Part shown: positions 9,004 to 36,434 of the stretch, in pieces
Numbering within the stretch: position 1 is the stretch's first letter
Layout of the letters: every line of letters begins with the position of its first letter
Assembly: GCA_019116885.1 (NCBI GenBank)
Contig: DXAU01000010.1
Location: forward strand, 1-37,149
Length of the DNA: 37,149 bases
Reading direction: 5' to 3'
DNA from: Candidatus Mediterraneibacter pullistercoris
GTDB taxonomy: Bacteria > Bacillota > Clostridia > Lachnospirales > Lachnospiraceae
Program-made: the position numbers and the translations under genes
Notes under the pieces: generated by a model
Seen by the model: the letters and a program-made list of their open reading frames with translations, nothing else
Told to the model about the DNA's origin: nothing
Database searches by the model: none

Positions 9004-12000
9004 TTATATCCCTTTAAAACTGAAAGAGAACTCCATTTTTCCATTTGCATCAAGCAGATATTCCGGGTGTGTCTGCGCACCCCACGAGTCATCTCCGGCA
9101 ATCCCCATCTGGCCTGACGCCACGCGAACCACCGTATGATGGATCTGCGGCAGCTCATAAGGATGCCTTGCATTTTCCAGCTCATGAGGTGTGTAAGGCA
9201 GTGCGGAAAACATCATCGGGCCGCTCTCCTCTGACATTGCAAAGAGAATACCTCTTCCCTTTTTATCCGTCACTGATGCACACCTGACCTCCTGTTTCGC
9301 GCCACACTCCTGAGGAACGATATAACGCGCCAGATTATCCGCAGCCAGGTTCTGATAAATTCCCAGCTTCGCTCCCTTTTTGCGGTCCGCATAAGTCTCC
9401 GCAGGTCCCAGCCCGTACCACTTCACATGGTCATAATCTGCACTGAACCTGAAAATCACTCCAAATTCCGGCATATCTCCAAGTTCTGCTGCGGCCGCAC
9501 AGGTAAGCGTCGTCTTGATCCAGCCGTCTTGCGACACTTCGTATGTAATCTGACATTCGCTCAGAGGACTGGTCGGCAGAATATAGGGAAATGTCACTTT
9601 CACAGATGCCTCTCCAATCTCAGTCTGAGGTTCCATGATATTTCCGAATGTTCTCTCGCGGAAATCTTTATGCCCCACATACAGACTGGCGATCTTCCAC
9701 TGAGCATACCTCTGCGGCATCTGGTTTCCACGGTCATTGTCCACCGGCGCACGCCAGAAGTTCGGTTTTGGTATCTCATGGATCAGTTCTCTGCCCGCAT
9801 AGCGGTAGGACGTCATCCCACCGTCCATCAGGGAAAACAGAACATGAAAGTGATCTCCCCGTACTCCCACAGCGTGCTTGCTCCGGATCACTTCAAACCG
9901 CCTGCTGTTCCGGATCACATTGCCGCTGTATAAACGTGGACACAGGATACCGGCCAGAGCCTGAGGAACTGCGCATCCGTCTTTGCCATGCTCATGCACA
10001 CTATAAACATACTGTCCGAAAGACACTTCATGTCCGGCCGGAGCCCATATCGTCTTCTCTTTCAGATGAAAGGAAACTGTCACCGTGTACTCTCCGGGAT
10101 CGCTTTCTTTCTTAAACGGGAGCTTATAAGTCTCCTCACCAAGAGGCTCCACAGCAGTCTTTAAAGCCGCCGTCCTGATCTGTACGCCGTTTCTTGCTAC
10201 AGTCACACGACAAGCAAATGTGTCCGTATTCACGAAGAGATTTTTATTTGTTACTTTTACGTCTTCTGCCGTGACTGTCGCTGTAATGTTCTGATAATTG
10301 AACTTCACCTCCTGCATCTTGGGCGAAGGTTCTCTGCCGCCGGCATAGACAATACCATTAGCACAGAAATTGTAGTCTGTGGGGCGTTCTCCGAAATCGC
10401 CGCCATACGCCTGAAACTCTTTCCCGTATCTGTCTTTTTTACCAATCGTCTGATCGATATAATCCCAGATGAATCCGCCCTGATAGAGAGGCTCTGTGTC
10501 GGTCAGATCCGTATATTTATGCATTGCTCCACAGGAATTTCCCATCGCATGCAAGTACTCGCAGCATATGAATGGTTTGCTCCGGTCTTTCGCAAGAAAT
10601 TCTATAATTTTTTCAACCGGAGTATACATCTGGCTCTCTATATCACTTGTCTCATTATATCTGCGGTCATGGAAAATGCCTTCATAATGCACCAGACGAT
10701 ATGGATCCTCTCTACGGAAGAACCTAGAGATCTCATAGATATTCCTTCCACCGTAGGACTCATTTCCGCAGGACCAGATCAGAATAGACGGATGGTTTTT
10801 GTCTCTCTGGTACATAGAATTGGCACGATCCAGCACCATGTCCTGCCACTCTGATTTATCTCCAGGCACAATATAGTCATCGTCTCCTGTACTCTCCACC
10901 GTATCCCAGGATCCATGTGTCTCCAGATTCACTTCATCGATAAGATACAGACCGTACTCGTCGCAAAGCCTGTAGAATACAGAAGAGTTCGGATAATGAG
11001 ACGTACGGACTGCATTGATATTATTTTGTTTCATGACCTCCAGGTCCCGGCGCATCTCTGCCTCAGAGACACAGCGCCCTGTGATGGAACTGAACTCATG
11101 ACGGTTCACGCCTTTGACCACAATCCGCTTTCCATTCAGCATCATGATGTTGTCTTTTATCTCAAATCTTCGGAACCCTGCTTTCTCCGGAATCACCTCG
11201 CAGCACCTGCCATTCTCATCATACACTTCTATAAGCAGGTCATACAGGCAGGGGGCTTCCGCACTCCAGAGGTCCGGGCTTGGAATCGTCCATTGGTATG
11301 TGGATTCTTCTTTCAATTCTCTCTCTTCCTGGAAACAAGTTTCTCCTCCGCGTGAAAGAGTGAATCTCGCAGTCCCTGTCCCCCAGCATTTTGTCCTGAT
11401 CTCCAACACTCCCTCTGTCAGATTCTCATCCGGCACTGCCTGCACACACAGATCCCTGATATGAACATTTGGAACCGTGTACAGGTACACATCTCTGTAT
11501 ATCCCTGAAAAACGAAAGAAATCCTGATCCTCGCACCAGCTTCCCGCCGTCCATTTAAATACCTGTACTGCCAGTTTATTCTCCTCTTGCAGATATTCGG
11601 TCAATTCAAACTCCGACGGTGTAAAACTGTCTTCACTGTATCCGATGAACGTTCCATTCAGCCAGACCGCAAGGCCGCTCTCAGCTCCCTGAAAAGAGAT
11701 GAACACTCTCTTTCCCTTCATCCGCTCCGGAACAGAAAAATATTTTACATAACTCGCTACCGGATTAAACCGCTCCGGAATCTGCCCCGGCCGGATATCC
11801 TCGTGCCCCTCCCATGGATACTGGGTATTCACGTACTGAGGCACGTCATAGCCTTCTATCTGGATATGAGCAGGCACACGGATATCATCCCAGTCCTCAC
11901 AGCAGAAGCCTTCCTTTTCAAATCCCGGGAGCGCAGACCGATAGTTCTCAGCATAATGGAACTTCCAAACTCCGTTCAGACTCTCTGTAAAATCCGAGCA

Positions 12001-12120
12001 TCCGTCTCCCATATCGCTTAGGTCTGTATAATAAAGATGATCGGAATGTGCATCCAGACATCTGTCTCTGAAATATTGAGGATTTTTTACATTTTTATAG
12101 TCAAATTTCTTGTCTCTCAT
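9004..12120 (-). CDS. GH2 beta-galactosidase, LacZ type, intracellular
   Basis: The 1038-residue protein has the LacZ architecture: N-terminal jelly-roll domain (about 45-215), immunoglobulin-like domain, TIM barrel (about 325-610), then the second Ig-like domain and the large C-terminal beta-domain. The acid/base is Glu454 in SCGNESYGG, and the nucleophile is Glu521 in CCEYLHAMGNS. EVNLETHG (396-403) is the LacZ-like active-site loop. No signal peptide is seen, so it acts in the cytoplasm, removing terminal beta-galactose. It is the last gene of the permease-permease-binding protein-sulfatase-galactosidase operon, 13 bp after the sulfatase. AGGTGA precedes the ATG. The context suggests that galactose becomes accessible after desulfation or defucosylation; linkage preference is unknown. 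Confidence 0.94.
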   Translation of the reverse strand: MRDKKFDYKNVKNPQYFRDRCLDAHSDHLYYTDLSDMGDGCSDFTESLNGVWKFHYAENYRSALPGFEKEGFCCEDWDDIRVPAHIQIEGYDVPQYVNTQYPWEGHEDIRPGQIPERFNPVASYVKYFSVPERMKGKRVFISFQGAESGLAVWLNGTFIGYSEDSFTPSEFELTEYLQEENKLAVQVFKWTAGSWCEDQDFFRFSGIYRDVYLYTVPNVHIRDLCVQAVPDENLTEGVLEIRTKCWGTGTARFTLSRGGETCFQEERELKEESTYQWTIPSPDLWSAEAPCLYDLLIEVYDENGRCCEVIPEKAGFRRFEIKDNIMMLNGKRIVVKGVNRHEFSSITGRCVSEAEMRRDLEVMKQNNINAVRTSHYPNSSVFYRLCDEYGLYLIDEVNLETHGSWDTVESTGDDDYIVPGDKSEWQDMVLDRANSMYQRDKNHPSILIWSCGNESYGGRNIYEISRFFRREDPYRLVHYEGIFHDRRYNETSDIESQMYTPVEKIIEFLAKDRSKPFICCEYLHAMGNSCGAMHKYTDLTDTEPLYQGGFIWDYIDQTIGKKDRYGKEFQAYGGDFGERPTDYNFCANGIVYAGGREPSPKMQEVKFNYQNITATVTAEDVKVTNKNLFVNTDTFACRVTVARNGVQIRTAALKTAVEPLGEETYKLPFKKESDPGEYTVTVSFHLKEKTIWAPAGHEVSFGQYVYSVHEHGKDGCAVPQALAGILCPRLYSGNVIRNSRRFEVIRSKHAVGVRGDHFHVLFSLMDGGMTSYRYAGRELIHEIPKPNFWRAPVDNDRGNQMPQRYAQWKIASLYVGHKDFRERTFGNIMEPQTEIGEASVKVTFPYILPTSPLSECQITYEVSQDGWIKTTLTCAAAAELGDMPEFGVIFRFSADYDHVKWYGLGPAETYADRKKGAKLGIYQNLAADNLARYIVPQECGAKQEVRCASVTDKKGRGILFAMSEESGPMMFSALPYTPHELENARHPYELPQIHHTVVRVASGQMGIAGDDSWGAQTHPEYLLDANGKMEFSFSFKGI

Positions 12121-12133
12121 TTCATTTCACCTG

Positions 12134-13588
12134 TTATTTCTGATATTTTGCAGTTTCAGCGTAAACGCTCTTCCCGGCAGAGTAGATTCCCGGCCGCCGG
12201 ATCTGTCCCATCCCTGTCACCGCTTCCCTCGTTCCGTCTACCGAGGGATCGGCATAGCGTACATACCATTTCTGCAGTCTGTCGAGCAGCTCGCAGCGGA
12301 TTTGTTCATATTCCGGATCACCAGCCAGATTCCTTTCTTCTCCTGGATCATTCATCAGATCATAAAGTTCGCACGGCCCGTAAGGATAACGGTGGATATA
12401 CTTCCACTCCCTGCTCCGGATCATTCTGCTCGATCCATACTCATCCAAAATGACAACATGCCCGTCCGGCGACTCTCCCCCGGTCAGCACCTGTGCAAAG
12501 CTCTTCCCCGGTAGACCGCCCGGCAGTTCTCCCTCGAGTCCAAGCAGTTCTTTTAATGTCTGGATGATATCGTAGTGACTGCACATACTCTCTGTTACTA
12601 TACCCGCAGGAATAACTCCATGCCACCTCGCGATAAAAGGTACCTTTACAGCCGTATCATACAGGTTGAAAGGAAATGTCCCGTTCCCTTTCCCCCATAT
12701 TCCATGGTGTCCCATGTTCATTCCATTATCCGAAGTAAAGATCACCAAGGTGTCTTCAGCTTTTCCAAGTTCTTCCAGACGGTCCAGGAGACGCCCTACT
12801 CCCGCGTCCATCGCTGTCACTGCGGCATAATATCCCCTCAGGAGCCTCTTTCTTTCTTCCCCGGTCCCACTGGGCGCTGTGGGGATCAGATGCGGATGCA
12901 GCGGTACATCCGGTGTCGCGGTACACTCACAGTCCTGATACATCCTGACAAACTCTGCCGGATGCTGATCCGCATCCCACGGATCATGAGGAGCTGTGTA
13001 ATGAACGCTGATATAAAAAGGTTCTTCCTCAGCGGCATATTTGTCAAGATTTTCCAGCGCATGTTCCGTAATCAGATCTGTGATGTATCTGTTTTCCATC
13101 CTCAGTTCTCCGTTTTCGATCACATCAGGCTGCATATACAGACATCCGCCCCTCCCTATTGTAAACCAGTCGGTGAATCCGTGCTGGGGCTCCATACTGT
13201 CTCCCAGATGCCACTTCCCGGACAGCGCGCAGCGATACCCGTTTGCTGCGAGGAGATCCGTGTATGTGACCATATCCTGAATGTATTGAACCGGTTTATC
13301 CTCACTTGCAAAATACGGATGTTCTTTCTGCTCTCCAAGCGCATCTCTGTCAAGGCTCCCGCTCCGTATCCAGTCATGAACTCCATGCTGGGACGGGATT
13401 CGTCCGGTCAGTATGGAGGCCCTTGCCGGGCTGCAGACCGGCGACGCGCAGAAAAAATTGTCAAATCTCATCCCCGCCTCGGCAAGCCGGTCAAGGTTGG
13501 GTGTATGTATGTCTGTATTTCCGGCGCACCTGAGCGCCCATGCCCCCTGATCGTCTGTAAGGATAAATAAAATATTAGGTTTACTCAT
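12134..13588 (-). CDS. Sulfatase of the formylglycine type (S1 family), Cys-type site, intracellular
   Basis: The 484-residue reading uses the second of two adjacent ATGs (13588), which sits best behind GAGAGG. TDDQ (11-14) supplies metal-binding aspartates. The maturation signature CSPAR (Cys52-Ser-Pro-Ala-Arg56) followed by ASILTGR is diagnostic for sulfatases whose Cys is converted to formylglycine. There is no signal peptide, so desulfation should occur in the cytoplasm, unlike the periplasmic enzymes of Bacteroidetes. It lies between the solute-binding protein gene and the GH2 gene, behind an internal terminator. The candidate maturase is encoded at 21760-22875. The sulfated sugar position (for example 3-, 4- or 6-sulfate on Gal, GalNAc or GlcNAc) cannot be read from sequence. 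Confidence 0.93.
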   Translation of the reverse strand: MSKPNILFILTDDQGAWALRCAGNTDIHTPNLDRLAEAGMRFDNFFCASPVCSPARASILTGRIPSQHGVHDWIRSGSLDRDALGEQKEHPYFASEDKPVQYIQDMVTYTDLLAANGYRCALSGKWHLGDSMEPQHGFTDWFTIGRGGCLYMQPDVIENGELRMENRYITDLITEHALENLDKYAAEEEPFYISVHYTAPHDPWDADQHPAEFVRMYQDCECTATPDVPLHPHLIPTAPSGTGEERKRLLRGYYAAVTAMDAGVGRLLDRLEELGKAEDTLVIFTSDNGMNMGHHGIWGKGNGTFPFNLYDTAVKVPFIARWHGVIPAGIVTESMCSHYDIIQTLKELLGLEGELPGGLPGKSFAQVLTGGESPDGHVVILDEYGSSRMIRSREWKYIHRYPYGPCELYDLMNDPGEERNLAGDPEYEQIRCELLDRLQKWYVRYADPSVDGTREAVTGMGQIRRPGIYSAGKSVYAETAKYQK

Positions 13589-13608
13589 CATTTTCCTCTC
13601 GTTCTGGT

Positions 13609-13642
13609 GAAAAACCGACACGCCATTTCTGGCATGCCGGTT
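13609..13642 (-). terminator. Intrinsic terminator between the solute-binding protein and sulfatase genes
   Basis: On the minus strand a 13-bp stem (two G-T wobbles) closes on a GAAA tetraloop and runs into TTTTT. It starts 24 bp after the binding-protein stop. No promoter is evident between it and the sulfatase, so partial read-through, lowering expression of sulfatase and galactosidase relative to the binding protein, is the likely role. Confidence 0.8.
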
Positions 13643-13665
13643 ATATTTCCAATCTTGTGAATCAC

Positions 13666-15210
13666 TTACTTTGATGCTCTATATTCTTCAAGCTGTGTAG
13701 CTACTTCGTCAATCAGTTCCTGTGCTCCATTCGCCTCCAGCTCATCCAGGAAAATCGGAATGTATTCCTCAGGATCAACAGTTCCTGTCTCAAGCGATGG
13801 TCCATATTCCGCAATAACATTTGTCAGAGCTGCAACCTGAGTTTCAACAGGTGTTATGTCAAAGGAGAACCCGTTATTCTGTGAGATAACCGCTGAATCA
13901 TTGTATTCCTGGAAGAGTTCCTCAATGTTCTCCGGGTAGCTGATGTCCCATTTCTGGTTAAATGGTGTACCAAACTGCCATCCATATGTATAGTCATAAC
14001 CGTTGTCTGTCAGTGTTCCGCCCATTGTTTTGTCAACCTGGTTTTCACCTACTTCCGTATAGTGTGTTCCTTCAATACCATGACGAATAAGTGTACCCAC
14101 ATACTCGTCAGTATTCAACAGATTGATAAACTCAAGCGCTTTCTCCGGATTCTCACTTGCTGAAGAGATCGCAAGAATACCGCCGCTGAGCACGCTGCTT
14201 GTCTCGAAAAGCGGATCCATCAGTGATACAAATCCTACGCCGTGTCCACTTGTTTCTGACATCATCTCTACATTTCCTGGTGCGTTTTTGATGAAGTAGG
14301 AGAACAACTTTCCAGTATTGAAATCGTTATCCCTGTTCGCTGTATCGGTGTCGTAGTTGACCGGATCTCCACCGAGATATCCTGCCTGATTCCACTCATA
14401 TACAGTCTTGCAGTAATTCATATATTCTTCACTTGCGTACTGGTTGAACACGTCTTCTCCCTGCATATCCGCGAAATTATTGTACTCAGGAACCGCAGCT
14501 GCTGCCGGAAGCGTGCTATTTCCTGTCAGAGACTCGTACGGAGCTGCCATCGGCCATGCGTTTACCAAACCGGATACTCCGATCACATCCTGGCCTGCTG
14601 CCTTGGACTTCTCTGAAACTGCTGCCAGCACTTCTGTATAATCATCTATCGTCTTTACCTGGCTCATGTCAATGCCATACTCTTCAGCAAGGTCACTGTT
14701 ATACACAATGCCGCCCTGCCAGCCCATCTCTTTATAGGACGGAACACCATAAATCTTTCCATCCACTTTAACAGTATCCCATACTTCCTGTGGAATGAAA
14801 TCGTAGGTTCCCTTCGCATATTCCGGCAGAAGCTCTGTGATATCCAGGAAAGCATCCTTTCCTACGAACTGGAGATAATCTGTCGTCCAGTTTGCCGTGA
14901 AGCAGATATCGAAATACTCGCCCGCATTGATCAGGTTCGGCATCTTCTCTTTGTAATCCGGATTTGCAATTACATTATAATCGATCTCCACACCAATCTT
15001 TTCACGTGTGTACTTATTGAGTTCTTCGATTACCATATCCGTGTCAGCCGCCACCGGATTGATTGACATATACCACGTCAACGTTGTAACATCGTCTGAG
15101 TCTCCCCCATCGGATGATCCTCCCGATCCCGATCCACATCCAACCGCAAGGCTTGCCGTCATAACTGCCGCAAGACCCAGACCCAGGATTCTTTTTGTTC
15201 TCTGTTTCAT
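13666..15210 (-). CDS. ABC-transporter solute-binding lipoprotein for oligosaccharide uptake (LplA/YtcQ-like)
   Basis: The 514-residue protein begins with a lipoprotein signal peptide: MKQRTKR, a hydrophobic core, and a LAVGC lipobox with the lipidated Cys at 25, then a Gly/Ser/Asp-rich tether. The mature part has the large cluster D-type sugar-binding fold expected for the LplA group, with many aromatic residues (for example ANWTTDYLQF, YNFAD, WQFGTPFNQKWD). It would sit on the outer face of the membrane and deliver oligosaccharides to the two permeases encoded upstream. GAGGAGGAA precedes the ATG. The partner ATPase is absent from the locus, as is usual for these systems, which use a shared MsmK-type ATPase encoded elsewhere. 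The ligand is inferred from the neighbours (sulfated/fucosylated galactosides). Confidence 0.92.
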   Translation of the reverse strand: MKQRTKRILGLGLAAVMTASLAVGCGSGSGGSSDGGDSDDVTTLTWYMSINPVAADTDMVIEELNKYTREKIGVEIDYNVIANPDYKEKMPNLINAGEYFDICFTANWTTDYLQFVGKDAFLDITELLPEYAKGTYDFIPQEVWDTVKVDGKIYGVPSYKEMGWQGGIVYNSDLAEEYGIDMSQVKTIDDYTEVLAAVSEKSKAAGQDVIGVSGLVNAWPMAAPYESLTGNSTLPAAAAVPEYNNFADMQGEDVFNQYASEEYMNYCKTVYEWNQAGYLGGDPVNYDTDTANRDNDFNTGKLFSYFIKNAPGNVEMMSETSGHGVGFVSLMDPLFETSSVLSGGILAISSASENPEKALEFINLLNTDEYVGTLIRHGIEGTHYTEVGENQVDKTMGGTLTDNGYDYTYGWQFGTPFNQKWDISYPENIEELFQEYNDSAVISQNNGFSFDITPVETQVAALTNVIAEYGPSLETGTVDPEEYIPIFLDELEANGAQELIDEVATQLEEYRASK

Positions 15211-15276
15211 AACCGTTCCTCCTCTAAGTTATATTATTTTGTCAAAACGCCTCTGCGTTCTGAAAACATATGAATA

Positions 15277-16215
15277 TCAGCCTTTTACTCCGCCCACTGT
15301 AAGACCTTTGACAAAGTACTTCTGGAAATAAGGATACGCCAGAAGGATTGGCAGGACTACCAGCACGGTCAATGCCATTCGTCCACTGTCTGTCGGCGCG
15401 TTCTGCGCCATTTCGGCATACTCAAGAGCGTTTGCTGAGGATTGTTTCATAAATTCAAGACTGTTCTGCATACTCCACAAAAGTGTCTGCACCGGATATT
15501 TCTCCTGATCTACGATATAGAGCATTCCAAGGAACCAGTCATTCCAGTAAGCGATCATTGTAAACAGTCCGATTGTAGCTACGCCCGGTTTAGACAATGG
15601 AAGTACAATCCTGAAAAATGTCTTAAACTCTCCCGCGCCATCCACTCTTGCAGCTTCTATCAGCTCAACTGGTATACTTTTATAAAAAGTTCGCAGCACG
15701 ACAATATAGAAAGCATTAAATGACATCGGAAAAATCAGCGCCCACACACTGTTGCCAAGACCAAGAAGCTGTGTGTTCACCATATAGGTGGCAACAATTC
15801 CGCCGTTAAACAGCATGGTGAAAAGCATCAGGAGCGTAAACAGTCTGTTATATGCATAATCGCTGCGGCTAAGCACATATGCAAAACTTGCGCTTATCGC
15901 CAGACTGAACAAAGTTCCGACCACCGTAACGAAAATGGTAATTCCATAGGAGCGTATCAGCTGATCTCCCAGTTTAAAGAAAAAATTGTATGCATCCAGG
16001 CTCCACTCCGAAGGGAAGAAGCTGTATCCGTTTTCAAAAATACTCTGTTCACTGCTGAAAGAAACAATAACTACGAGCAGAAGCGGAAGCACACAAAGCA
16101 GCGTCCATACGAAAAACCAGATATTTAGCATTACATCCGCTTTTTTGGATATCCGGTTTATGGTCAGTTCTGCCACACCCTCATCCTTTTTGTTTCTCTT
16201 AAACAAACTTTTCAT
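15277..16215 (-). CDS. Carbohydrate ABC-transporter permease (LplC/YtcP-like)
   Basis: The 312-residue membrane protein has about six transmembrane helices and the ABC-permease coupling segment EAARVDGAGEFKTFFRIVLP around two thirds along, which contacts the ATPase. It ends PYFQKYFVKGLTVGGVKG, a C-terminus characteristic of the LplC/MalG group. It pairs with the LplB-type permease, from which it is separated by 16 bp, to form the membrane channel for the binding protein encoded 66 bp downstream. The ATG at 16215 has GGGAGG 9 nt upstream. The sequence appears intact. Confidence 0.93.
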   Translation of the reverse strand: MKSLFKRNKKDEGVAELTINRISKKADVMLNIWFFVWTLLCVLPLLLVVIVSFSSEQSIFENGYSFFPSEWSLDAYNFFFKLGDQLIRSYGITIFVTVVGTLFSLAISASFAYVLSRSDYAYNRLFTLLMLFTMLFNGGIVATYMVNTQLLGLGNSVWALIFPMSFNAFYIVVLRTFYKSIPVELIEAARVDGAGEFKTFFRIVLPLSKPGVATIGLFTMIAYWNDWFLGMLYIVDQEKYPVQTLLWSMQNSLEFMKQSSANALEYAEMAQNAPTDSGRMALTVLVVLPILLAYPYFQKYFVKGLTVGGVKG

Positions 16216-16231
16216 TGTATCATGCCTCCCG

Positions 16232-17185
16232 TCAGAATAATGCGCTGTCCGGATCCATCTTGCGCACTACAAGATTAGTTCCCACTACAAGTATAAATCC
16301 AACGACCGACTGATACAGACTCGCCGCCGATGCCATTCCTACATTTCCCGTCTCTTTGAGTGCCCGGTATACATATGTATCAATAACCTGTGTCACATCG
16401 TACAGGGGACCTGAATCTCTTGGAAGCTGGAAAAACAGGCCGAAGTCAGCATAGAAGATTCTTCCAATCGCCAGAATCGTCAGAACGATCATCATCGGCT
16501 TCAGGCACGGAAGCGTAATATTCTTGATCTGCTGCCACTTGGTTGCTCCGTCTATAACTGCCGCTTCATAATAATCATTTGGAATACTTGTCAGTGAACT
16601 CAGGTACATAACCGTTGAATATCCGACCGTCTTCCACAACTGGAAAAATGTCAGAATAAACGGCCATTTCCCCGGGTCTGAATACCAGTCTACTCCCGAA
16701 AATCCAAAGTACTGGAGCAAATGGTTAAACAAACCATCATCCACACTGAACATTGAAAATGCCATAAATGAAACCACAACCCATGACAGAAAATACGGCG
16801 CCATAAAAATAGTCTGGTAAACCTTTGCTCTCCGTTTCTTTAAAAGTTCGCTTAGTCCAATTGCCATAGCCACAGCCATAACCAGGTCAAGAGCAATAAA
16901 CATTCCATTATAAAGGAGCGTATTACGGGTAATAACCCACGCGTCAGTTGTTTTAAACAGGAATTCAAAATTCCTAAAACCGATCCACTCGCTTCCGAAT
17001 ATTCCGTCTCTTACGCTGAAGCGTTTGAACGCTAACAGGAGTCCTGACATGGGAAGATAACGGAACAGAATCATAACAATAAGCCCCGGCGCCGCCATTA
17101 TCGTTAATGGAAGGTTCTTTTTAAACACATACCAGAAGCCTTTTTTTCTTTTTGCGGCAGATGGCTTTGCAGTGGTCATATTCAT
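16232..17185 (-). CDS. Carbohydrate ABC-transporter permease (LplB/YteP-like)
   Basis: The start at 17185 is supported by GAGGGGG about 6 nt upstream and gives 317 residues; the longer open frame has no site. The N-terminus is basic (AAKRKKGFWYVFKKN), followed by six predicted helices. The permease coupling motif is visible as YEAAVIDGATKWQQIKNITLP. The RKMDPDSALF C-terminus is typical of LplB proteins. It is the first gene of the five-gene leftward operon and is divergent from the response-regulator gene, an arrangement common for YesMN-controlled sugar loci. It forms the heteromeric channel with the next permease. Confidence 0.93.
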   Translation of the reverse strand: MNMTTAKPSAAKRKKGFWYVFKKNLPLTIMAAPGLIVMILFRYLPMSGLLLAFKRFSVRDGIFGSEWIGFRNFEFLFKTTDAWVITRNTLLYNGMFIALDLVMAVAMAIGLSELLKKRRAKVYQTIFMAPYFLSWVVVSFMAFSMFSVDDGLFNHLLQYFGFSGVDWYSDPGKWPFILTFFQLWKTVGYSTVMYLSSLTSIPNDYYEAAVIDGATKWQQIKNITLPCLKPMMIVLTILAIGRIFYADFGLFFQLPRDSGPLYDVTQVIDTYVYRALKETGNVGMASAASLYQSVVGFILVVGTNLVVRKMDPDSALF

Positions 17186-17228
17186 AACATCCCCCTCTTC
17201 TTTCCGTATTTCATTTCTTTCTGAATAA

Positions 17229-17300
17229 ATTGTAGCATCTGTCAATTATTTCCTACAACGGCACAATTTTTATCTGAAGTGTATTTTTTTATGTGCCGTT
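17229..17300 (-). promoter_or_regulatory. Candidate operator and promoter of the transporter-sulfatase operon
   Basis: On the minus strand a TACAAT -10 (17229-17234) would start transcription about 37 nt before the permease ATG, but no consensus -35 is present. Instead a perfect 9-bp inverted repeat, AACGGCACA (17257-17265) and TGTGCCGTT (17292-17300), has its near arm at about -36 to -44 and its arm centres 35 bp apart. A poor -35 flanked by a binding-site-like repeat is what an activated promoter looks like. The divergently encoded AraC-type regulator is the obvious candidate. Confidence 0.5.
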
Positions 17301-17343
17301 ATGCACTAAAAAAACTTTAAAAACCATTAATTCCAGGAAACAA

Positions 17344-17373
17344 TTCACAAATCCTGCTGCTGTATGCTATAAT
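17344..17373 (+). promoter_or_regulatory. Promoter of the response regulator-kinase-fucosidase operon
   Basis: TTCACA (17344-17349, five of six matches), an 18-bp spacer and a perfect TATAAT (17368-17373) lie about 35 nt upstream of the response-regulator ATG. This suggests basal expression of the sensor system. Confidence 0.7.
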
Positions 17374-17414
17374 AGCCGTTGATCATAAAAGTATTACAGA
17401 AGAGGAGTCTTACA

Positions 17415-18476
17415 ATGAAAGTACTACTTGTCGACGACGACTATCTTGCGCTCGAAGGGCTGTGCCAGATGCTCAGATGGGAAAACTTTGGCGGGGAGCT
17501 GGCAGGCTGCGCAACAGACGGGATCGAAGCTGTTTCTATAATAGAAGGCACCCTGCCGGATGTGGTCATCTCGGATATCAAGATGCCTCGTATGGATGGG
17601 ATAAATCTCGCATCCTGGCTGCACCATAACCATCGGGAGATCCGCATCATCCTCCTCAGCGGGCACAGCGAATTTGAATATGCCCAGAAAGCCCTGCAGT
17701 ATCGTGTCACTGATTATATCCTAAAACCAATCACACGGCAGAAGATTGCAGAGCTGGAAAACCGTCTGGCAAAAATCAACTGTGAGCTTCAGGCAAAGAA
17801 CGAGGTGCGCCGTCTGGCGGCTGATGATGCGCTTCGGGATCAACTTCTTGCCGCACTGCGCAAAGGGGACGCAGGCGAGCTCAGCAAACTGATGCTGTCC
17901 GGTGACATCTCCTCCGCTCTTCTCCAGGACTCTGACGGAACACTGGGAGCAACAATTTTAAATTATGTCTTCGACTATCAAAACGAAATCGGAAAAGATA
18001 AACCGAACCTGACAGAACTTAAGAAGGCGTCTATCGAAAATTATTGGAGCCTCCGCTCTCCCAAAGAACGCATAGATTACCTCTTTACCTGCTGCCAGAA
18101 TCTTATGGCATATTCAGAGAACCAAAAAGGCGAATATGAACAGCCGATTGCCGCTCACTGTATCCAGGTGATCCAGGAACACTTTTCCGATCCTTCCTTT
18201 AATATCTCCCAGCTGGCGGACATGGTAAATCTGTCTCTTCCATATCTGAGCACAGTTTTTAAACAGGTGACAGGTCAGACGATCAGCAGCTATCTCTCAC
18301 AGCAGAGGCTGCTACATTCCCAAAATCTGCTGCAGGACATCTCAATCCCGATCCGGGATGTCTGTACCAGATCCGGATATGAAGATCCCCATTATTTTGC
18401 CAGATTTTTTAAAAAGCAGACTGGTATGACTCCCAGCGAGTATCGTAATCTTTACAGTTCCAGACCCCTGTCATGA
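17415..18476 (+). CDS. Response regulator with AraC-type DNA-binding domain (YesN-like)
   Basis: The start at 17415 follows GAGGAG by 8 nt and gives 353 residues. The N-terminal receiver domain has the acidic pocket LLVDDDY (5-10), phospho-acceptor Asp54 in VISDIKMPRMDG, the conserved Ser82 region LLSGHS and Lys104 in YILKPI. After a linker of about 130 residues, two AraC-type helix-turn-helix motifs occupy roughly 255-350 (FNISQLADMVNLSLPYLSTV; YEDPHYFARFFKKQTGMTPS). It is phosphorylated by the adjacent kinase and should activate the divergent transporter operon. A 24-bp gap separates it from the kinase gene. Confidence 0.95.
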   Translation: MKVLLVDDDYLALEGLCQMLRWENFGGELAGCATDGIEAVSIIEGTLPDVVISDIKMPRMDGINLASWLHHNHREIRIILLSGHSEFEYAQKALQYRVTDYILKPITRQKIAELENRLAKINCELQAKNEVRRLAADDALRDQLLAALRKGDAGELSKLMLSGDISSALLQDSDGTLGATILNYVFDYQNEIGKDKPNLTELKKASIENYWSLRSPKERIDYLFTCCQNLMAYSENQKGEYEQPIAAHCIQVIQEHFSDPSFNISQLADMVNLSLPYLSTVFKQVTGQTISSYLSQQRLLHSQNLLQDISIPIRDVCTRSGYEDPHYFARFFKKQTGMTPSEYRNLYSSRPLS

Positions 18477-18500
18477 CAAGTCTTGGAAGGAGGAAAACTT

Positions 18501-20285
18501 ATGAGTATCACAAAACGAAGTTTTATGTTTATCTGTCTCATTATTTCCACTATCCTGCTGACACTGAATATTGTCACCTATATCCTCTTCAGACATTCTA
18601 TCGAGGCACAGATTTTAACGTCCCACGATGCGCTTGTAGAAGCAAATAACCTTCTGTGCCGTCTTTTCACGCAGGAGATAGACCAGCTCACCTATCTGTA
18701 CACCACAGACCAGGAACTGGGAACCTTGCTTTCAAAAGATGTCGGAGAAGATCCTTTAGAAGATGCTCAGACAAAAATAGAACTCAACAGCCGGATGGCT
18801 TATAATCTGAACTCCCAGAGCACTCTGTCAGACAAAGGTTTTTCCGCCGTACTTTACGTCAATCCCGCCCTCCCGGCGGGCTCTTTATTCCAGCCCGCCA
18901 ACACGGTAGAGGATGTCAGCCGCCTTTTCAGCGCAGAAGCTGTCAGCAGTAAGGACTGGTATACCAATACATTGGAACAGGTTGCACGTCAGTACATTTT
19001 TGTCGATGAAAGAGACGGACGTCTGTGTTTTGCAAAGATACTTCAGAACAGTTACTATTCCGGTCCTCACCAGAATGAAGGCATAGGAGTTCTCCTCTGT
19101 AGCGTACCTGCCGACCGTATCCCGCAGATGTTCTCTTTCCAGCCCCTGACATCCAACAGCGGTTTTGCGCTTTTCAGCCGCGACGGTTCTCTTCTGTATC
19201 AGTCGGATGCCCTTCCGGATCTGTCCTCAGTCTCACCTCAGTTCCTAAAAGAAACTACGCATCAGGAACTATTTCTTAACAACAGTTCCTTTATATACAG
19301 TTCCGCAGAACTTGACTGGGGCCTCCATCTTCTGTTTCTCACACCGTCTGATGATATTTCGGATCAACTCCATACGATCATGGTTCCATACCTGTTCTGC
19401 TCTGTGATTTTCCTGAGTATTGGAGCTCTGCTCTCTCTCCTGCTGTCAAAGAACATATCCCGTCCTATTGTGCAGCTTGCAAAAAAGATCGAAAGTATCG
19501 AGGACACCCGGAACGTCGATTTCTCCATGTTCTTTGTCACGGATCCTCTTGAAATCCGGCGTCTGAACGCAAGTTTCAGCGGTCTGATCTGCCGGGTGAA
19601 CCGCCTTACGCATCAGATCCAGAAAGCAGCCGAGCAGCGCCGGCTCAGCGAACTGCGCGCTCTCCAGGCCCAGATGAATCCTCACTTTGTACTTAACGCC
19701 ATGAACACCGTCAATTATATGGCACTTATCCGGGGACAGGACGATATCGCGGCTACCGTAGATTCAATTGCAAATCTGATGCGTTACAGCATTACAGATC
19801 CTGATCAGCTTGTCAGCATACACACTGAGGTTGAAAATATCCGGGAATATATTTCCATTTACACACTGAGGTTTCGCCAGGAGATCCGGCTTGAGATCAT
19901 ATCTGACTGCCCTGATACAGAGGTTTTCATTCCCAAGTTCACTCTTCAGCCTCTTGTGGAAAACTCAATCCGACATGGCATTACAAGACAGGATGCCGGA
20001 ATCACTGTCTTCCTCCGGATATCCGAAGACCGCGGACAAACGACTGTGGAAGTGACCGATACAGGCAGAGGAGCGGATGCAGATAAGCTGAATGCCTATC
20101 TCCGCTATGAAAACGTCGACTTAAAAGTATCAAACGGATTCGGGATCCGAAATGTGAATGAACGGACCAAACTTCATTTTGGCGGAAACAGCGGACTTTC
20201 TTATTCCATTGATAAACATGGACGGCTTGCAGCAGTTCTCACAATATGTAAGCATGAAAAAAGTACACCTGATCAAAAGATTTAA
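18501..20285 (+). CDS. Sensor histidine kinase, YesM type
   Basis: The start at 18501 follows AAGGAGG by about 7 nt, giving 594 residues. One membrane helix lies at about 8-30 and a second at about 293-316, bounding a large extracellular sensor domain of about 260 residues. HAMP follows (about 317-370). The His_kinase domain carries the phospho-accepting His395 in AQMNPHFVLNAMN. The ATP-binding domain shows the N box PLVENSIRHG (484-493), DTGRG (520-524) and GFGIRN (546-551). It is the signal input for the AraC-type regulator. The extracellular domain probably senses the sugar or the loaded binding protein (inference). Confidence 0.94.
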   Translation: MSITKRSFMFICLIISTILLTLNIVTYILFRHSIEAQILTSHDALVEANNLLCRLFTQEIDQLTYLYTTDQELGTLLSKDVGEDPLEDAQTKIELNSRMAYNLNSQSTLSDKGFSAVLYVNPALPAGSLFQPANTVEDVSRLFSAEAVSSKDWYTNTLEQVARQYIFVDERDGRLCFAKILQNSYYSGPHQNEGIGVLLCSVPADRIPQMFSFQPLTSNSGFALFSRDGSLLYQSDALPDLSSVSPQFLKETTHQELFLNNSSFIYSSAELDWGLHLLFLTPSDDISDQLHTIMVPYLFCSVIFLSIGALLSLLLSKNISRPIVQLAKKIESIEDTRNVDFSMFFVTDPLEIRRLNASFSGLICRVNRLTHQIQKAAEQRRLSELRALQAQMNPHFVLNAMNTVNYMALIRGQDDIAATVDSIANLMRYSITDPDQLVSIHTEVENIREYISIYTLRFRQEIRLEIISDCPDTEVFIPKFTLQPLVENSIRHGITRQDAGITVFLRISEDRGQTTVEVTDTGRGADADKLNAYLRYENVDLKVSNGFGIRNVNERTKLHFGGNSGLSYSIDKHGRLAAVLTICKHEKSTPDQKI

Positions 20286-20365
20286 CTCTTTTCAACTTTC
20301 ACGCTGCGCGATATATTAGAATCAACTACCGGCTTTTGCCGAAAACATAAAAAGGAGCACAACTC

Positions 20366-21724
20366 ATGGCGAAAACACTTGTTGTAAACGGTATCCATAA
20401 TTATACTGCACCAGAGGAATATGTTCCCCCCCGGTCGGAGGCCGTCAAAAACCACCTGGAATGGTTTATGGATCAGAAACTGGGCCTGATGATGCACTGG
20501 GCTCCCGGCTCTCAGCTTGGAACCTACGAAAGCTGGCCCTTAAGCGACGGAGACGGCGCGTGGAGCCAGGAAGATATGACTTGGGCGGACATTGAGACTT
20601 GCAAACAGCAGTACTGGGATGCAAACCGCACTTTTAATCCTGTGAAATTTAATCCTGCAGAATGGGCTGCGCTTGCTGCAGAATGCGGCTTCAGATATCT
20701 GCTTTTTACAACGAAACATCACGACGGTTTCTGCATGTATGACACAGATACAACCCACTATAAAATAACGGATGAATCCTGTCCGTTCCACACACACAAA
20801 GATGCCGACATCACAGGGGCTCTCTTCCGGGAATTCCGGAAACAGGGTCTTGGTATTTCTGTATATTTTTCCAAACCCGACTGGCACAGCGAATATTACT
20901 GGGCCCCACAGTTCGGAACAGCGCCTGACCGGAATGTAAATTATGATATCAACGAATATCCACAGTTGTGGGAGAGTTATGTCCAGTTCGTCCATCAGCA
21001 GATGCGGGAGCTCTGCACCAGTTACGGGAAAGTTGATGTACTCTGGTTAGACGGCGGCTGGGTGCGTCCTGACAATCTCGGTCAGGATATCCGCCTTTCA
21101 GAGATTGTCGAGGAAATCAGGTCTTCAGCACAGCCACACCTGATTGTTTCAGACCGTACCTGCGGCGGCGAATACGAAAATTTTATTACTCCTGAGAAAA
21201 CTGTGCCGGACCGCGCTCTTTCAGTCCCATGGGAGACATGTACGACTGTCGGAAATAGATTCTCTTTCCATTATACGGACACTTTCAAGAGCGGTCATCA
21301 GCTCGTCCTCCTCCTCCTGGATGTCGTAAGCAAGGGCGGCAATCTGGCGCTCAACGTAGCCCCTCAGCCGGACGGTGAACTTCCCGCTCCTGCCGTGCGA
21401 TCCCTCCGCAATCTTGGAGCATGGATGAAAGTCTTTGGCGATGGTATTTATGGGACCCGCATCTGTGCCCCGCACGCTTCGGACAGGATTTTCTACACAG
21501 GAAAAGAAAACGACGTATATGTGTTCTTCACCTATGATGAGACACCATCTCTTCCGAACCAGCTTGCTCTTCGCGTAGAAAGAACGGTCAAAAAGGCTGT
21601 CAGCATGCGGACCGGCATATCGGTCCGTTTCCGGCAGGAAGGAAACGACGTCACCCTATATCTGGAAAACATCCCTATGGGCGGAGCGTTCTACGCTGAG
21701 GGATTCCGTCTTATTACAGACTAA
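20366..21724 (+). CDS. GH29 alpha-L-fucosidase, intracellular
   Basis: The 452-residue protein shows GH29 features: LGLMMHW with His44 near the N-terminus, FTTKHHDGF (114-122), and VDVLWLDGGW with the predicted nucleophile Asp229. The C-terminal 100 residues form the beta-sandwich domain. The barrel end SKGGNLALNVAPQPDGELP matches the family. There is no signal peptide, so it should remove fucose from imported oligosaccharides. AAGGAG lies 8 nt upstream of the ATG. It is 80 bp after the kinase gene and probably co-transcribed. GH29 members differ in linkage preference (alpha-1,2/3/4/6), which cannot be assigned here. The acid/base residue is not conserved enough in the family to call. Confidence 0.92.
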   Translation: MAKTLVVNGIHNYTAPEEYVPPRSEAVKNHLEWFMDQKLGLMMHWAPGSQLGTYESWPLSDGDGAWSQEDMTWADIETCKQQYWDANRTFNPVKFNPAEWAALAAECGFRYLLFTTKHHDGFCMYDTDTTHYKITDESCPFHTHKDADITGALFREFRKQGLGISVYFSKPDWHSEYYWAPQFGTAPDRNVNYDINEYPQLWESYVQFVHQQMRELCTSYGKVDVLWLDGGWVRPDNLGQDIRLSEIVEEIRSSAQPHLIVSDRTCGGEYENFITPEKTVPDRALSVPWETCTTVGNRFSFHYTDTFKSGHQLVLLLLDVVSKGGNLALNVAPQPDGELPAPAVRSLRNLGAWMKVFGDGIYGTRICAPHASDRIFYTGKENDVYVFFTYDETPSLPNQLALRVERTVKKAVSMRTGISVRFRQEGNDVTLYLENIPMGGAFYAEGFRLITD

Positions 21725-21748
21725 TTCCAAAAAGACGGCAAATACAAA

Positions 21749-21781
21749 AGCGGACTATCTTACGTTTTCAGATAGTCCGCT
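21749..21781. terminator. Bidirectional terminator between the fucosidase and the sulfatase maturase
   Basis: A perfect 12-bp inverted repeat (AGCGGACTATCT / AGATAGTCCGCT) with a 9-nt loop ends the two convergent genes. TTTT follows on the minus strand and ATTTCTTTC on the plus strand. The maturase stop codon lies within the hairpin. Confidence 0.85.
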
Positions 21782-22875
21782 ATTTCTTTCATTCTGGCTG
21801 CACATTTGCTGAAAAACATCTGGTATCCCTCGCAGAAATAATTTCTGTAAAGTCCCGTCTCCCCATCCGGCAGCCGGTGCCTGCGGCAGCCGTTCCGGCA
21901 GAGTATGAACCATGGGCATCTCATGCATGCCTGCCCATTCTTCCGGGATGTTCTCACAAAATCCGCCGCCGTGTTGCTGCGCAGGAACTCTTCAATCCCA
22001 CTGTCATTATAATTTCCCAGACAGTACTCATCCATAGCGTAAAAATCACAGGGATACGCGCTTCCATCCGCCTCCGCCACACACTGCACACTGCATACTC
22101 CGCGCTGCTCGCAGGACTCGGGGATCACACCCATGAGTATTCCAATATAGTTCTCAAACTGGCGGATATAGGGAGCTTTCCCTTTTCTCCAATCCTTTTC
22201 CCACAGACGGAACAATTCTGTCAGGAACTTTCCGTAGTCTCCGGGCATCAGAGAATATTCTCTGCGTCCGGGTTCTTCACCGACCGGGTCCAGACAGGCG
22301 ATATACTGCTGATAGTTCCATCCGTTCCGCTTATACTCCTGGTATATCTCTCCGGCTCTTCCTGCTGCCTCTCCTGTCACAACAGTGAGGATATTGTACT
22401 CCACTCCGTATCTGTCCAGCATACTGACCGAATCCTTTATTTTCTCGTAGGTCGGTCCGCCGCCGGCGTCGTGCCGGTATCTGTCGTGAAGAGCCTTTGT
22501 TCCATCCACCGATACTCCGATCAGAAAATCATGCTCTTTAAAAAAACTGCACCATTCTTCATCAAGGGAGAGTCCGTTTGTCTGAAGCGTATTTATGACA
22601 CGTATGTTTCTTCTGTTGAAATGCTGTTCATATTCGACTGCTTTCCGGAAAAAATCAATGCCTCTGAGCGTCGGCTCTCCGCCCTGAAAGGCAAAACAGA
22701 TCTCTCCGCCGGCCTGGCGCATCGCTTTCTTTATCAGATTTTTAAGCGTATCTTCAGACATCATTCCCCGGAAAGCCTGCTCTCTCTTTTCCGTTTCATC
22801 ACAGTAGAAGCAGTAGCCGCACCTCATATTGCACAGGCCGGAAGCCGGCTTGACCAGTATCGTATGCAGTGTCAT
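21760..22875 (-). CDS. Anaerobic sulfatase-maturing enzyme (radical SAM formylglycine synthase)
   Basis: The start at 22875 (GGGAGGGAG upstream) gives 371 residues, the usual length. The radical-SAM cluster ligands are Cys15, Cys19 and Cys22 (CNMRCGYC). The SPASM region carries Cys255, Cys261, Cys276-Asp277 (YPCDFY), Cys317, Cys320, Cys326, Cys330 and Cys348. As I recall them, these positions coincide with the two auxiliary clusters and catalytic Asp of the characterised Clostridium perfringens enzyme. It converts the active-site Cys (or Ser) of sulfatases to formylglycine without oxygen. The substrate candidate is the Cys-type sulfatase at 12134-13588. It lies 20 bp after glnN on the same strand, so it may be transcribed from there rather than with the sulfatase. 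Confidence 0.95.
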   Translation of the reverse strand: MTLHTILVKPASGLCNMRCGYCFYCDETEKREQAFRGMMSEDTLKNLIKKAMRQAGGEICFAFQGGEPTLRGIDFFRKAVEYEQHFNRRNIRVINTLQTNGLSLDEEWCSFFKEHDFLIGVSVDGTKALHDRYRHDAGGGPTYEKIKDSVSMLDRYGVEYNILTVVTGEAAGRAGEIYQEYKRNGWNYQQYIACLDPVGEEPGRREYSLMPGDYGKFLTELFRLWEKDWRKGKAPYIRQFENYIGILMGVIPESCEQRGVCSVQCVAEADGSAYPCDFYAMDEYCLGNYNDSGIEEFLRSNTAADFVRTSRKNGQACMRCPWFILCRNGCRRHRLPDGETGLYRNYFCEGYQMFFSKCAARMKEIADYLKT

Positions 22876-22895
22876 CAGTTTCTCCCTCCCGGCTT

Positions 22896-25010
22896 CTATA
22901 CCTCGAAGATCAGATCTCCATAAGACGGCATCGGCCATACTTCTTTGTCAATGATCATCTCCAGTTTGTCGACCGGTGCGCGGAGGGCTTCCATAGCCGG
23001 GAAAACGTCTGAGTGATAGAAGTTCGCCTGTACAGCCCCTTCTTCTTTCTGAGCCGCCTCGTCCGTCACTTTAATCAGAGCATCAAGAGCAGCCTTCGTC
23101 TCACCCATAAGCGCAGTGACTTCATCGAGAGACGCTCTCTGTACAGACGCGTCCACTCCGGCTGCTTCGACTGCATTTACAGTATCTGCAAGCGTCTTTG
23201 TATATCGAATGAACGTAGGTATGAACTGCTTGCTGGCCATGTCGATCATCGTGCGCGCTTCAATATTGATCGCTTTTGCATAGGTCTCATACTGAATCTC
23301 TGCACGGGACTCAAGTTCAGCTTTTGTGAACACGCCAAACCGCTCGAACAACTCTACCGCCGTGTCAGTAACCATTGCAGGAATGGCTTCCACCATGGAG
23401 CGGATATTCGGGAGGCCTCTTCTCTCCGCTTCTTTTACCCACTCCTCAGAGTACCCGTCTCCATTGAAGACAATTCTCTGGTTCTCTGTTGCATATTTCT
23501 TGATGAGGTCATGTACCGCCAGCTCAAAATCATCGGCTTTCTCCAGAACTTCACATGCATCTGCAAAAGCCTCTGCAACGATCGTATTGAGTACGATATT
23601 CGGGGAAGCAACGGAATCCCGTGATCCTACCATACGGAACTCAAATTTATTTCCTGTAAACGCAAACGGCGACGTTCTGTTCCTGTCCGTCGCATCCTTG
23701 GACAGTTCCGGAAGCGTGCGCACTCCTGTCTCCAGTTTCCCGCCCTTTATACTGTGAGTTGCTTCTCCTGTACTGATGAGCTGTTCAAGCACATCTTCAA
23801 GCTGCTCTCCAAGGAAGACGGAAATAATAGCCGGCGGCGCTTCATTGGCTCCAAGCCTGTGGTCATTTCCAGGATCAGCCGCGGATTCTCTTAAAAGATC
23901 GGCATGAAGATTCACTGCTCTCAGGATACAGGTCAGGACAAGCAGGAACTGTGTATTCTCATGAGGAGTCTTTCCCGGATCAAGCATGTTGATCCCATCA
24001 TCTGTAATGATCGACCAGTTGTTGTGCTTTCCGGAACCATTCACACCCGCGAACGGTTTTTCATGGAGCAGACACTTCATGCCGTGGCGGCATGCCACTC
24101 TCTTCAGTGTCTGCATCACAATCTGGTTGTGGTCTACGGCGATATTCGCCTCGGCGTAGATCGGAGCCAGTTCATGCTGCGCAGGGGCCACTTCATTGTG
24201 CTGTGTCTTTGCCGTAACCCCGACTTTCCACAGTTCCTCGTTAACGTCTTTCATAAATGCCGCGATTCTCTGACGGATCGTACCAAAATAGTGATCGTCA
24301 AGTTCCTGGCCTTTCGGCGGCATTGCCCCAAACAGTGTGCGTCCTGCATAAATCAGGTCTTTTCTCTGCTTGAATTTCTCAGCATCTACAAGGAAATACT
24401 CCTGCTCCGGCCCAACGGACGGAGTTACTTTCCCGGAAGTCGTATTGCCAAACAGTCTGAGCAGGCGGAGGGCCTGCCTGTTGATTGCTTCCATAGACCT
24501 TAAAAGCGGGGTCTTCTGGTCAAGCGCTTCGCCTGTGTAAGAACAAAATGCTGTCGGTATGCACAGCGTAGCGCCCGCTGCATCCTGTCTCACAAATGCG
24601 GGAGATGTACAGTCCCATGCCGTGTATCCTCTCGCCTCAAATGTAGCTCTCAGACCTCCCGACGGAAACGATGAAGCATCTGGTTCGCCCTTTATCAGTT
24701 CTTTTCCAGAGAAGCTCATCAGAACCTTTCCGCTCGGCTGAGGCGCAGAGATGAAAGAGTCATGCTTCTCCGCAGTCACGCCTGTCAGAGGCAGAAACCA
24801 GTGCGTATAGTGCGTTGCGCCTTTCTCGATGGCCCATTCTTTCATTTCATGCGCAATGACATCCGCGGTCTCAAGATCCAGTTCTTTTCCTTCTTCGATC
24901 GTCTTCTTCAAGTTTTTGTATACCTTTTTCGGCAGACGCTCCTGCATCACAGTGTCATTGAAAACATTTTCTCCAAAGATTTCGGATACGTTGATCTTTT
25001 CTGTGCTCAT
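22896..25010 (-). CDS. glnN: Glutamine synthetase type III (GlnN)
   Basis: The start at 25010 is supported by GGAAGGG; the open frame extends further but unsupported. The 704 residues match the large GSIII class and not the roughly 450-residue GSI. Family hallmarks include [14 protein letters not shown], the [19 protein letters not shown] stretch, [20 protein letters not shown] and [20 protein letters not shown]. It makes glutamine from glutamate, ammonia and ATP in the cytoplasm and is the ammonium-assimilating enzyme in many gut anaerobes. It has its own promoter and a structured leader of roughly 200 nt. The sulfatase-maturase gene follows after 20 bp. Confidence 0.97.
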
Positions 25011-25100
25011 AGTTGATCCCTTCCTTTTTGTTTTGTTTTCCATTCCGGGGGAAACGGCCGGAGTGTATTGCCCGCTATTACCCACCCACTGATCCAAAGA

Positions 25101-36381: not shown

Positions 36382-36434
36382 TGTACCTCCCATAAACAAA
36401 CCATAACATTCTGAAACACTGTATCCTTTTCCCT

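Follow-up and report, generated by a model that had tools for sequence, protein, structure and literature searches.

How might a Gram-positive gut bacterium feed on sugars that carry sulfate caps, and which of its genes form the unit that does so? Such caps are thought to protect the mucin of the gut, and work on how they are taken off has dealt mostly with Bacteroidetes and the sulfatases that these export. The question is raised by a locus at positions 9004-22875 of contig DXAU01000010.1 of Candidatus Mediterraneibacter pullistercoris (Lachnospiraceae), whose whole length of 37,149 bases (the window) was analysed; it is one entire contig of a 74-contig, 2.45 Mb genome with a completeness of 92.4%. 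An earlier note on this DNA, made from the sequence alone, had read the locus as a compact set of nine genes for the use of sulfated, fucosylated galactosides. All of the genes it named are present on the strands it gave, as confirmed with Pfam and NCBIfam, and they are arranged divergently and convergently as it described. The evolutionary unit is, however, seven genes rather than the whole 14 kb: a compact locus of nine is not quite accurate, as the glycoside hydrolase family 2 (GH2) and sulfatase maturase genes vary and are accessory.

The core consists of forward-strand genes coding for a YesN-type response regulator (17415-18476), a YesM-type sensor histidine kinase (18483-20285) and a GH29 alpha-L-fucosidase (20366-21724), which face reverse-strand genes coding for an LplB/UgpA-type ATP-binding cassette (ABC) permease (16232-17185), an LplC/MalG-type permease (15277-16215), a solute-binding lipoprotein (13666-15210) and an S1 sulfatase (12134-13588). 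Genome contigs were scanned with the sulfatase and the best 80 of 292 relatives were taken as loci, the sulfatase and other protein searches covering the best-scoring candidate sets only. Among 45 named loci with a sulfatase at least 60% identical to that of the window (L092, at 59.7%, falls below), the seven core genes occur together in 28, ten are partial and seven hold none of the partners; synteny was computed on the remaining 38, the seven being left out and counted as 'none'. Contig ends account for part, but not all, of the partial and partnerless loci. The loci come from Lachnospiraceae, Oscillospirales and one Treponema, and gene order and strands are kept in 26 of the 28 complete ones, the GH29 gene having moved behind the sulfatase gene in L054 and L055. 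It was this comparison with syntenic loci in related genomes, a check proposed in the earlier note, that showed the core. The neighbours are different where the sulfatase is 50-60% identical (Hungatella, Paenibacillus, Lederbergia, Treponema lecithinolyticum and others); a neighbour in L083 gives a weak GH42-type match.

Within the genus, 58 genomes were compared, including the source genome of the window. An orthologue of the sulfatase (at least 64% identity) is encoded in 16 of these, and a GH29 orthologue (at least 62%) in exactly the same 16. The exceptions among the 42 sulfatase-negative genomes are G006, where a contig breaks off in a GH29 fragment of 91% identity, and G052, with a GH29 of 53% identity; Fisher's test gives approximately 1e-14 without these two genomes and 2e-12 with both, with shared ancestry ignored and thresholds set post hoc. 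Sulfatases of 51-54% identity are present in some of the non-carriers. The maturase is encoded in 15 of the 16 carriers and 16 of the 42 non-carriers. As a member of the unit it was rejected, since its orthologue adjoins the core only in eight loci of the Mediterraneibacter group (L038-L041 and L043-L046) among the named loci; a 44%-identical maturase relative follows the sulfatase in L051. The GH2 was likewise rejected as a defining member, being the lacZ of the genus: orthologues of at least 69% identity are found in 15 of the 16 carriers and also in 21 of the 42 non-carriers. It shares a contig with the module in eight of the 16 carriers, where it adjoins the sulfatase (G000 and G035), adjoins the GH29 (G026) or lies beyond the maturase (G019, G024, G025, G030 and G043).

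Upstream of lplB, on the reverse strand (17253-17291), the divergent promoter region holds a conserved 39-base element, 34 bases of which agree with the consensus, while the second-best place in the window agrees at 24. Promoter regions from 30 loci among the 38 were compared along with that of the window, leaving aside L042, L050, L052, L056, L065 and L066, where one of the two genes is missing, and L071 and L072, with gaps of more than 600 bases. The element is found in all 31 regions, that of Treponema included, and in each it scores higher than in any of 200 shuffles of that region. This describes the element and is no strict test, given that the consensus was drawn from some of the same sequences and the shuffles keep base composition only. 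Its distance to lplB is near constant (60-64 bases) in Mediterraneibacter and Treponema, and differs in L070 and L076; the element probably combines a regulator site with the -35 region. Across the 28 complete loci and the window, pairwise protein distances for the sulfatase and for each of its six partners are correlated at r 0.92-0.96. A tree was built from 81 sulfatases, those of all 80 loci and that of the window; in it the window falls in a 33-row clade with 100/100 support that spans Lachnospiraceae, Oscillospiraceae, one Acutalibacteraceae row and Treponema L068, and Mediterraneibacter occupies two separate places, the 13-row clade of the window and L070/L076, which is not by itself proof of transfer. 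The common promoter element and the parallel gene distances fit a transfer of the module as a block.

The individual proteins indicate what such a block may do. The sulfatase (484 amino acids; PF00884, 2.4e-51) has a Cys-type maturation motif, CSPAR (C52), of the C-x-P-x-R type, which is invariant across 30 sequences; with its domain, its motif and a maturase in the genome it is classified as an S1 formylglycine sulfatase, predicted to hydrolyse a sulfate ester. Among PDB sequences it matches 5g2v (S1_11, 176 bits) and 9fo1 (S1_16, 166 bits), and assigning the subfamily by the best such match was rejected, as the scores are close and the identity low. The maturase (21760-22875, reverse strand), an anaerobic sulfatase-maturing radical S-adenosylmethionine enzyme, scores 387.4 bits with TIGR03942 (cut-off 349.45) and 406 bits with NF010321 (cut-off 441, not reached); the CxxxCxxC cysteines are C15, C19 and C22 in the 371-residue form. 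It is the sole TIGR03942 match above the cut-off in the genome, a second match lying far below. In the GH29 (452 amino acids; PF01120, 6.2e-80), the putative nucleophile D229, in the motif VLWLDGGW, aligns with the Asp of 6gn6 that is presumably the nucleophile there. The best solved relative is the same 6gn6 (183 bits), while the alpha-1,3/4 enzyme 3ues scores 61 bits, a difference that may point to GH29-A. The GH2 (9004-12120, reverse strand; 1038 amino acids) is a Pfam-confirmed beta-galactosidase of the LacZ/Bga2A type (NF052611, 1425 bits against a cut-off of 999). Both permeases match PF00528, and for the LplC-type protein the NCBIfam relatives GlcU, UgpE and MalG all score below their cut-offs. 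NCBIfam holds no family for the binding protein or the GH29. The regulator combines a receiver (Response_reg, 2.8e-24) with an AraC-type helix-turn-helix (HTH_18, 3.8e-21), and the kinase combines His_kinase (PF06580, 2.9e-21) and HATPase domains with a weak dCache_1 match (20.7 bits, below the cut-off of 45). For several genes the mechanically assigned start was replaced: the ATG at 13588 is preferred for the sulfatase and 17415 for the regulator, as 13621 and 17379 look too far upstream, and 17185 is preferred over 17245 for LplB, where the ATG lies behind a GGGGG stretch. The start of the maturase given in the earlier note, 22875, is the better choice. A type III glutamine synthetase gene, likewise on the reverse strand, ends 20 bases ahead of this start (21760-25097 for the two).

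The two catabolic enzymes of the core appear to work inside the cell. No signal peptide is seen in the sulfatase or the GH29 by N-terminal hydropathy, which was used here rather than SignalP: at the aligned start, the best 11-residue value is 0.60-1.10 for the sulfatases and 0.13-1.05 for the GH29s, against 1.30-2.58 for the binding proteins. Since the sulfatase and the fucosidase are without signal peptides, the oligosaccharide probably enters the cell intact and is cut there. A signal peptide is likewise not seen in the GH2. The binding protein (SBP_bac_1 and DUF3502 domains) has a lipobox-like N-terminus, and the orthologues listed have a lipobox. With its two permeases, a lipoprotein and an ATPase encoded elsewhere, the transporter belongs to the LplB/LplC-type importers without an ATPase of their own, and the one MsmX/MalK-type ATPase of the genome (a single OB_MalK match, on contig C66) would presumably serve it. 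The nearest solved relative of the binding protein is NgtS (5swa and 5suo, 124 and 119 bits).

Twelve of the 38 loci, all twelve of which we take to be Oscillospirales, carry genes for L-fuculose-phosphate aldolase, an FGGY kinase and L-fucose isomerase. These genes directly follow the sulfatase as FucA-FucK-FucI in 11, and in L054 they lie on the opposite strand beyond the GH29; the families were confirmed with Pfam in L063 and identified by tblastn in the other loci. Because these genes accompany the module, the sugar it releases is very probably fucose. In the source genome, a fucose isomerase, found there as a single copy, and an FGGY kinase are encoded on contig C48, together with ABC transporter proteins and a regulator of the LacI type. 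For galactose, the evidence lies in the origins of the GH2 genes beside the module: the genus lacZ adjoins it in the window, L048 and L049, nine Oscillospirales loci have a GH2 approximately 30% identical to this lacZ, and L070 has one that is 42% identical to the Oscillospirales type. At least two, and probably three, different GH2 genes thus appear to have joined the module. This repeated recruitment is the best argument for a beta-galactoside as part of the substrate, which is moderately supported because different GH2 genes joined the module; otherwise the GH2 is weak evidence. The substrate proposed in the earlier note is well supported as a sulfated, fucosylated class, with the sulfatase and GH29 in the core and fucose genes in 12 loci, and moderately as a galactoside.

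We consider it reasonably probable that the core forms a self-contained module, one that imports small beta-galactoside oligosaccharides bearing sulfate and fucose and digests them. The YesM/YesN pair would sense the sugar outside the cell and turn on the divergent promoter, the lipoprotein would catch the intact oligosaccharide, and LplB-LplC would import it, powered by the MsmX/MalK-type ATPase. Once in the cytoplasm, the oligosaccharide would lose its sulfate to the S1 sulfatase (activated by the maturase encoded nearby), its fucose to the GH29 and its galactose to the GH2, the lacZ of the genus that adjoins the sulfatase here. The fucose would pass to the isomerase and kinase encoded elsewhere in the genome. 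The source would likely be mucin-type O-glycan fragments freed by others, because no match to GH95 or to BNR_2-type sialidases is found in the genome, and the only GH29 match, the locus gene, is apparently intracellular. Release of the oligosaccharide would then fall to others, or to enzymes at which no search here was aimed. A mucin O-glycan source is plausible from the gut setting, the sulfation of chicken mucin (available part of PMC8521165) and a further sulfatase of this genome, on contig C27, near a GH112 gene. The order of the reactions, the position of the sulfate, the mucin source, the inducer and the ATPase used are given as we infer them. Gene content, the lack of N-terminal signals by hydropathy, synteny and co-occurrence are observed.

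Several points weigh against this import-and-digest reading. Loci L073-L075 and L077-L080, with sulfatases 60-63% identical, are without orthologous partners (L079 has only LplB/LplC relatives of 31-32% identity), and the Gemmiger loci L053, L058 and L059 keep the rest of the module with no GH29 inside the 10 kb flank. The co-occurrence statistic leaves common descent out of account, and the identity thresholds behind it were chosen once the hits were known. The GH2, as the general lacZ of the genus, may be present here by chance. The sugar and sulfate position of the sulfatase are not assignable, as none of the 50 fold matches listed exceeds 34% identity and many S1 subfamilies are tied in fold score. 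The longest possible start lifts the GH29 of L040 to a hydropathy of 1.75, the nearest solved binding protein takes N-glycan fragments, and absences are soft evidence in a genome that is 92% complete. The function of the module as a whole is drawn from sequence comparison.

The same importer and enzymes might instead act on another host glycan, such as sulfated N-glycan antennae, keratan sulfate fragments or sulfated milk- or egg-type oligosaccharides. In favour of this, NgtS, which binds Man5GlcNAc (available part of PMC5215778), is the nearest solved binding protein, and the GH2 is of the Bga2A/LacZ type. At 124 bits, however, NgtS is so distant that it has little say on the ligand, and its likeness was rejected as proof of an N-glycan ligand; furthermore, no endo-glycosidase or mannosidase of a known family is found among the Pfam-scanned neighbour proteins, a small share of all neighbours. 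Another host glycan is unlikely, though less so than the other alternatives. The sulfatase and fucosidase could also act on separate molecules and be merely co-regulated, with the sulfatase clearing an unrelated sulfate ester. Within this sulfatase group, members that are 50-60% identical do stand beside other genes without a GH29 orthologue, but the co-occurrence and parallel divergence of sulfatase and GH29, and the apparently cytoplasmic location of both behind one importer, make two separate substrates improbable.

Two further alternatives place the substrate outside the animal host. GH2, S1 and GH29 are the families that compose porphyran systems, and the porphyran enzymes 7lha and 7ljj are matched by sequence, so that the set might be of red-algal type, with the GH29 as an exo-alpha-L-galactosidase and the S1 enzyme as an L-galactose-6-sulfatase. 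The GH29, however, scores 89 bits with 7ljj against 183 with 6gn6, and the sulfatase 128 with 7lha against 180 with 5g2v; fucose isomerase, kinase and aldolase genes accompany the module, and the named relatives of at least 60% identity appear, judged by titles, to be mostly gut bacteria. A porphyran substrate is thus very improbable. An even fainter chance is given to a plant or algal fucosylated glycan (xyloglucan or fucoidan) combined with a carbohydrate sulfatase, as we know of no role for a sulfatase on xyloglucan, and no xylosidase or lyase is found among the 30 window proteins scanned. In its favour, xyloglucan fucose is released by some GH29-A enzymes (available part of PMC11189522).

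If the module imports fragments freed elsewhere, some relatives may encode a releasing enzyme of their own. A large surface protein is encoded beside the module in seven relatives (L076:11503-16158, L066:771-5357, L067:11539-16944, L070:11490-14559, L053:22-3138, L058 and L059), in four of which a middle domain of approximately 510 residues with a barrel fold is in view. This domain has no Pfam match, and NCBIfam and PDB sequence matches fall only outside it. In fold searches no family is clearly ahead of the rest; Foldseek alone places other barrel enzymes first (GH30 xylanases and alpha-galactosidases), at TM-scores of about 0.3-0.4. From these searches the domain is possibly an unclassified glycosidase-like barrel, a candidate releasing enzyme and a new glycosidase family. 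Tentatively, the wider picture might be a sulfo-fucosyl module that has spread horizontally with its promoter from Bacillota to Spirochaetota, on an S1 group without a solved close relative, and that in several lineages is joined by a secreted GH-A-like barrel glycosidase, which would free oligosaccharides bearing sulfate and fucose from mucin so that they can be imported whole.

Other genes near sulfatase relatives include GH123 genes in Robinsoniella (L067:17051-18754) and Hungatella (L087:12987-14645), hinting at substrates containing N-acetylgalactosamine for the wider sulfatase group. Anaeromassilibacillus An200 (L055, approximately 12900-17600) has, next to the module, a further LplB/LplC pair and two more relatives of the sulfatase, 27-30% identical. 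Two more Cys-type sulfatases are encoded in the source genome, with the motifs CGPAR on contig C16 and CIAAR on contig C27, while a fourth match, on C9, has no Cys-type motif in the matched piece; the single maturase would serve all three Cys-type sulfatases, that of the module included. The C16 sulfatase (L118, C16:42000-58000) adjoins a YesM/YesN pair, a binding protein and two permease-sized frames (unscanned), which may represent a further importer-plus-sulfatase locus. In the vicinity of the C27 sulfatase (L119, C27:44000-58965) are genes for a GH112 lacto/galacto-N-biose phosphorylase, a ROK protein and a binding protein. A ribonucleotide reductase gene intervenes, and this locus could possibly serve a sulfated core-1 or type-1 disaccharide. 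Rfam and tRNA scans of the window gave no matches; elsewhere in it, a low-GC stretch (29883-32178 and 35542-36399) holds type I restriction methylase, specificity and KilA-N genes, with no restriction subunit recognised among the frames scanned there.

In Lachnospiraceae, Gram-positive polysaccharide utilization loci (PULs) combine a regulator, an ABC importer and intracellular glycosidases; here, in contrast, a sulfatase is part of the core and the block is common to two phyla. The closest described design, compared by its description, is that of the Bifidobacterium breve ats1/ats2 clusters, which as far as the available part of the report goes (PMC9239261) combine a Gram-positive sulfatase, anaerobic maturase, transport and regulator for sulfated host sugars. 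All four of these parts are present in the window, but the core here includes a fucosidase, a YesM/YesN two-component regulator and an LplB/LplC importer whose lipoprotein has a DUF3502 domain, and the tie of the maturase to the core is loose. The mucin PULs of Bacteroides thetaiotaomicron similarly unite sulfatases (S1_4, S1_11, S1_15, S1_16 and S1_20) with glycosidases, and have a sensor of their own for the sulfated glycans of mucin, but in the available text (PMC10154612) they rely on SusCD uptake and several exported sulfatases, their locations mostly predicted. Here there is a single sulfatase, apparently cytoplasmic, and uptake is by an ABC importer. Among the 30 window proteins scanned there is no SusC/SusD pair, so that the locus falls outside the Bacteroidetes definition of a PUL. 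The Streptococcus pneumoniae NgtS-P1-P2 N-glycan importer resembles the module as an oligosaccharide importer with the nearest solved binding protein, but differs in its ligand and low sequence similarity, and no sulfatase is described in the available part of that report (PMC5215778).

Named loci in the clade of the window number 32, of which 13 have sample codes or epithets that we take to denote chicken or poultry and 12 state no readable host. A chicken source is documented for the other seven, six of them in the available part of PMC6069880 and one by its title. Chicken caecal O-glycans are 34% sulfated and 11% sulfo-sialylated according to the available part of a review (PMC8521165). The available text of PMC6069880 reports a mucin-desulfating sulfatase to be absent from chicken-caecum Firmicutes isolates, yet among the isolates listed there, An76 (L044), An120 (L097) and An200 (L055) carry the whole module and An87 (L053), An50 (L058) and An194 (L059) the module minus GH29. 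The presence of the module in these six isolates qualifies rather than contradicts that statement, because its term is an annotation label. Among the open-licence papers listed by the searches, none was recognised as describing this module.

This analysis defines the block as seven genes that have spread across phyla together with their promoter, and adds the tie to fucose catabolism and the intracellular layout. R. torques, presumably a relative of this organism, provides a contrast. This well-studied mucin degrader is reported in the available part of PMC11323728 to have no sulfatase by SulfAtlas hidden Markov models (HMMs), and sulfated glycans accumulate; with the absence reported in PMC6069880, this fits the view of the earlier note that sulfatase loci are less known in Lachnospiraceae. 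The outcome is a short list of candidate enzymes for sugars of the sulfated Lewis type, and the barrel domain points to what may be a new glycosidase family. If the proposed function is true, tests for secreted-sulfatase activity would miss such a module, and the Gram-positive import of a capped oligosaccharide would leave little free sugar for neighbours. The occurrence of much the same gene set in distantly related gut bacteria suggests a portable way to feed on the sugars of gut mucus.

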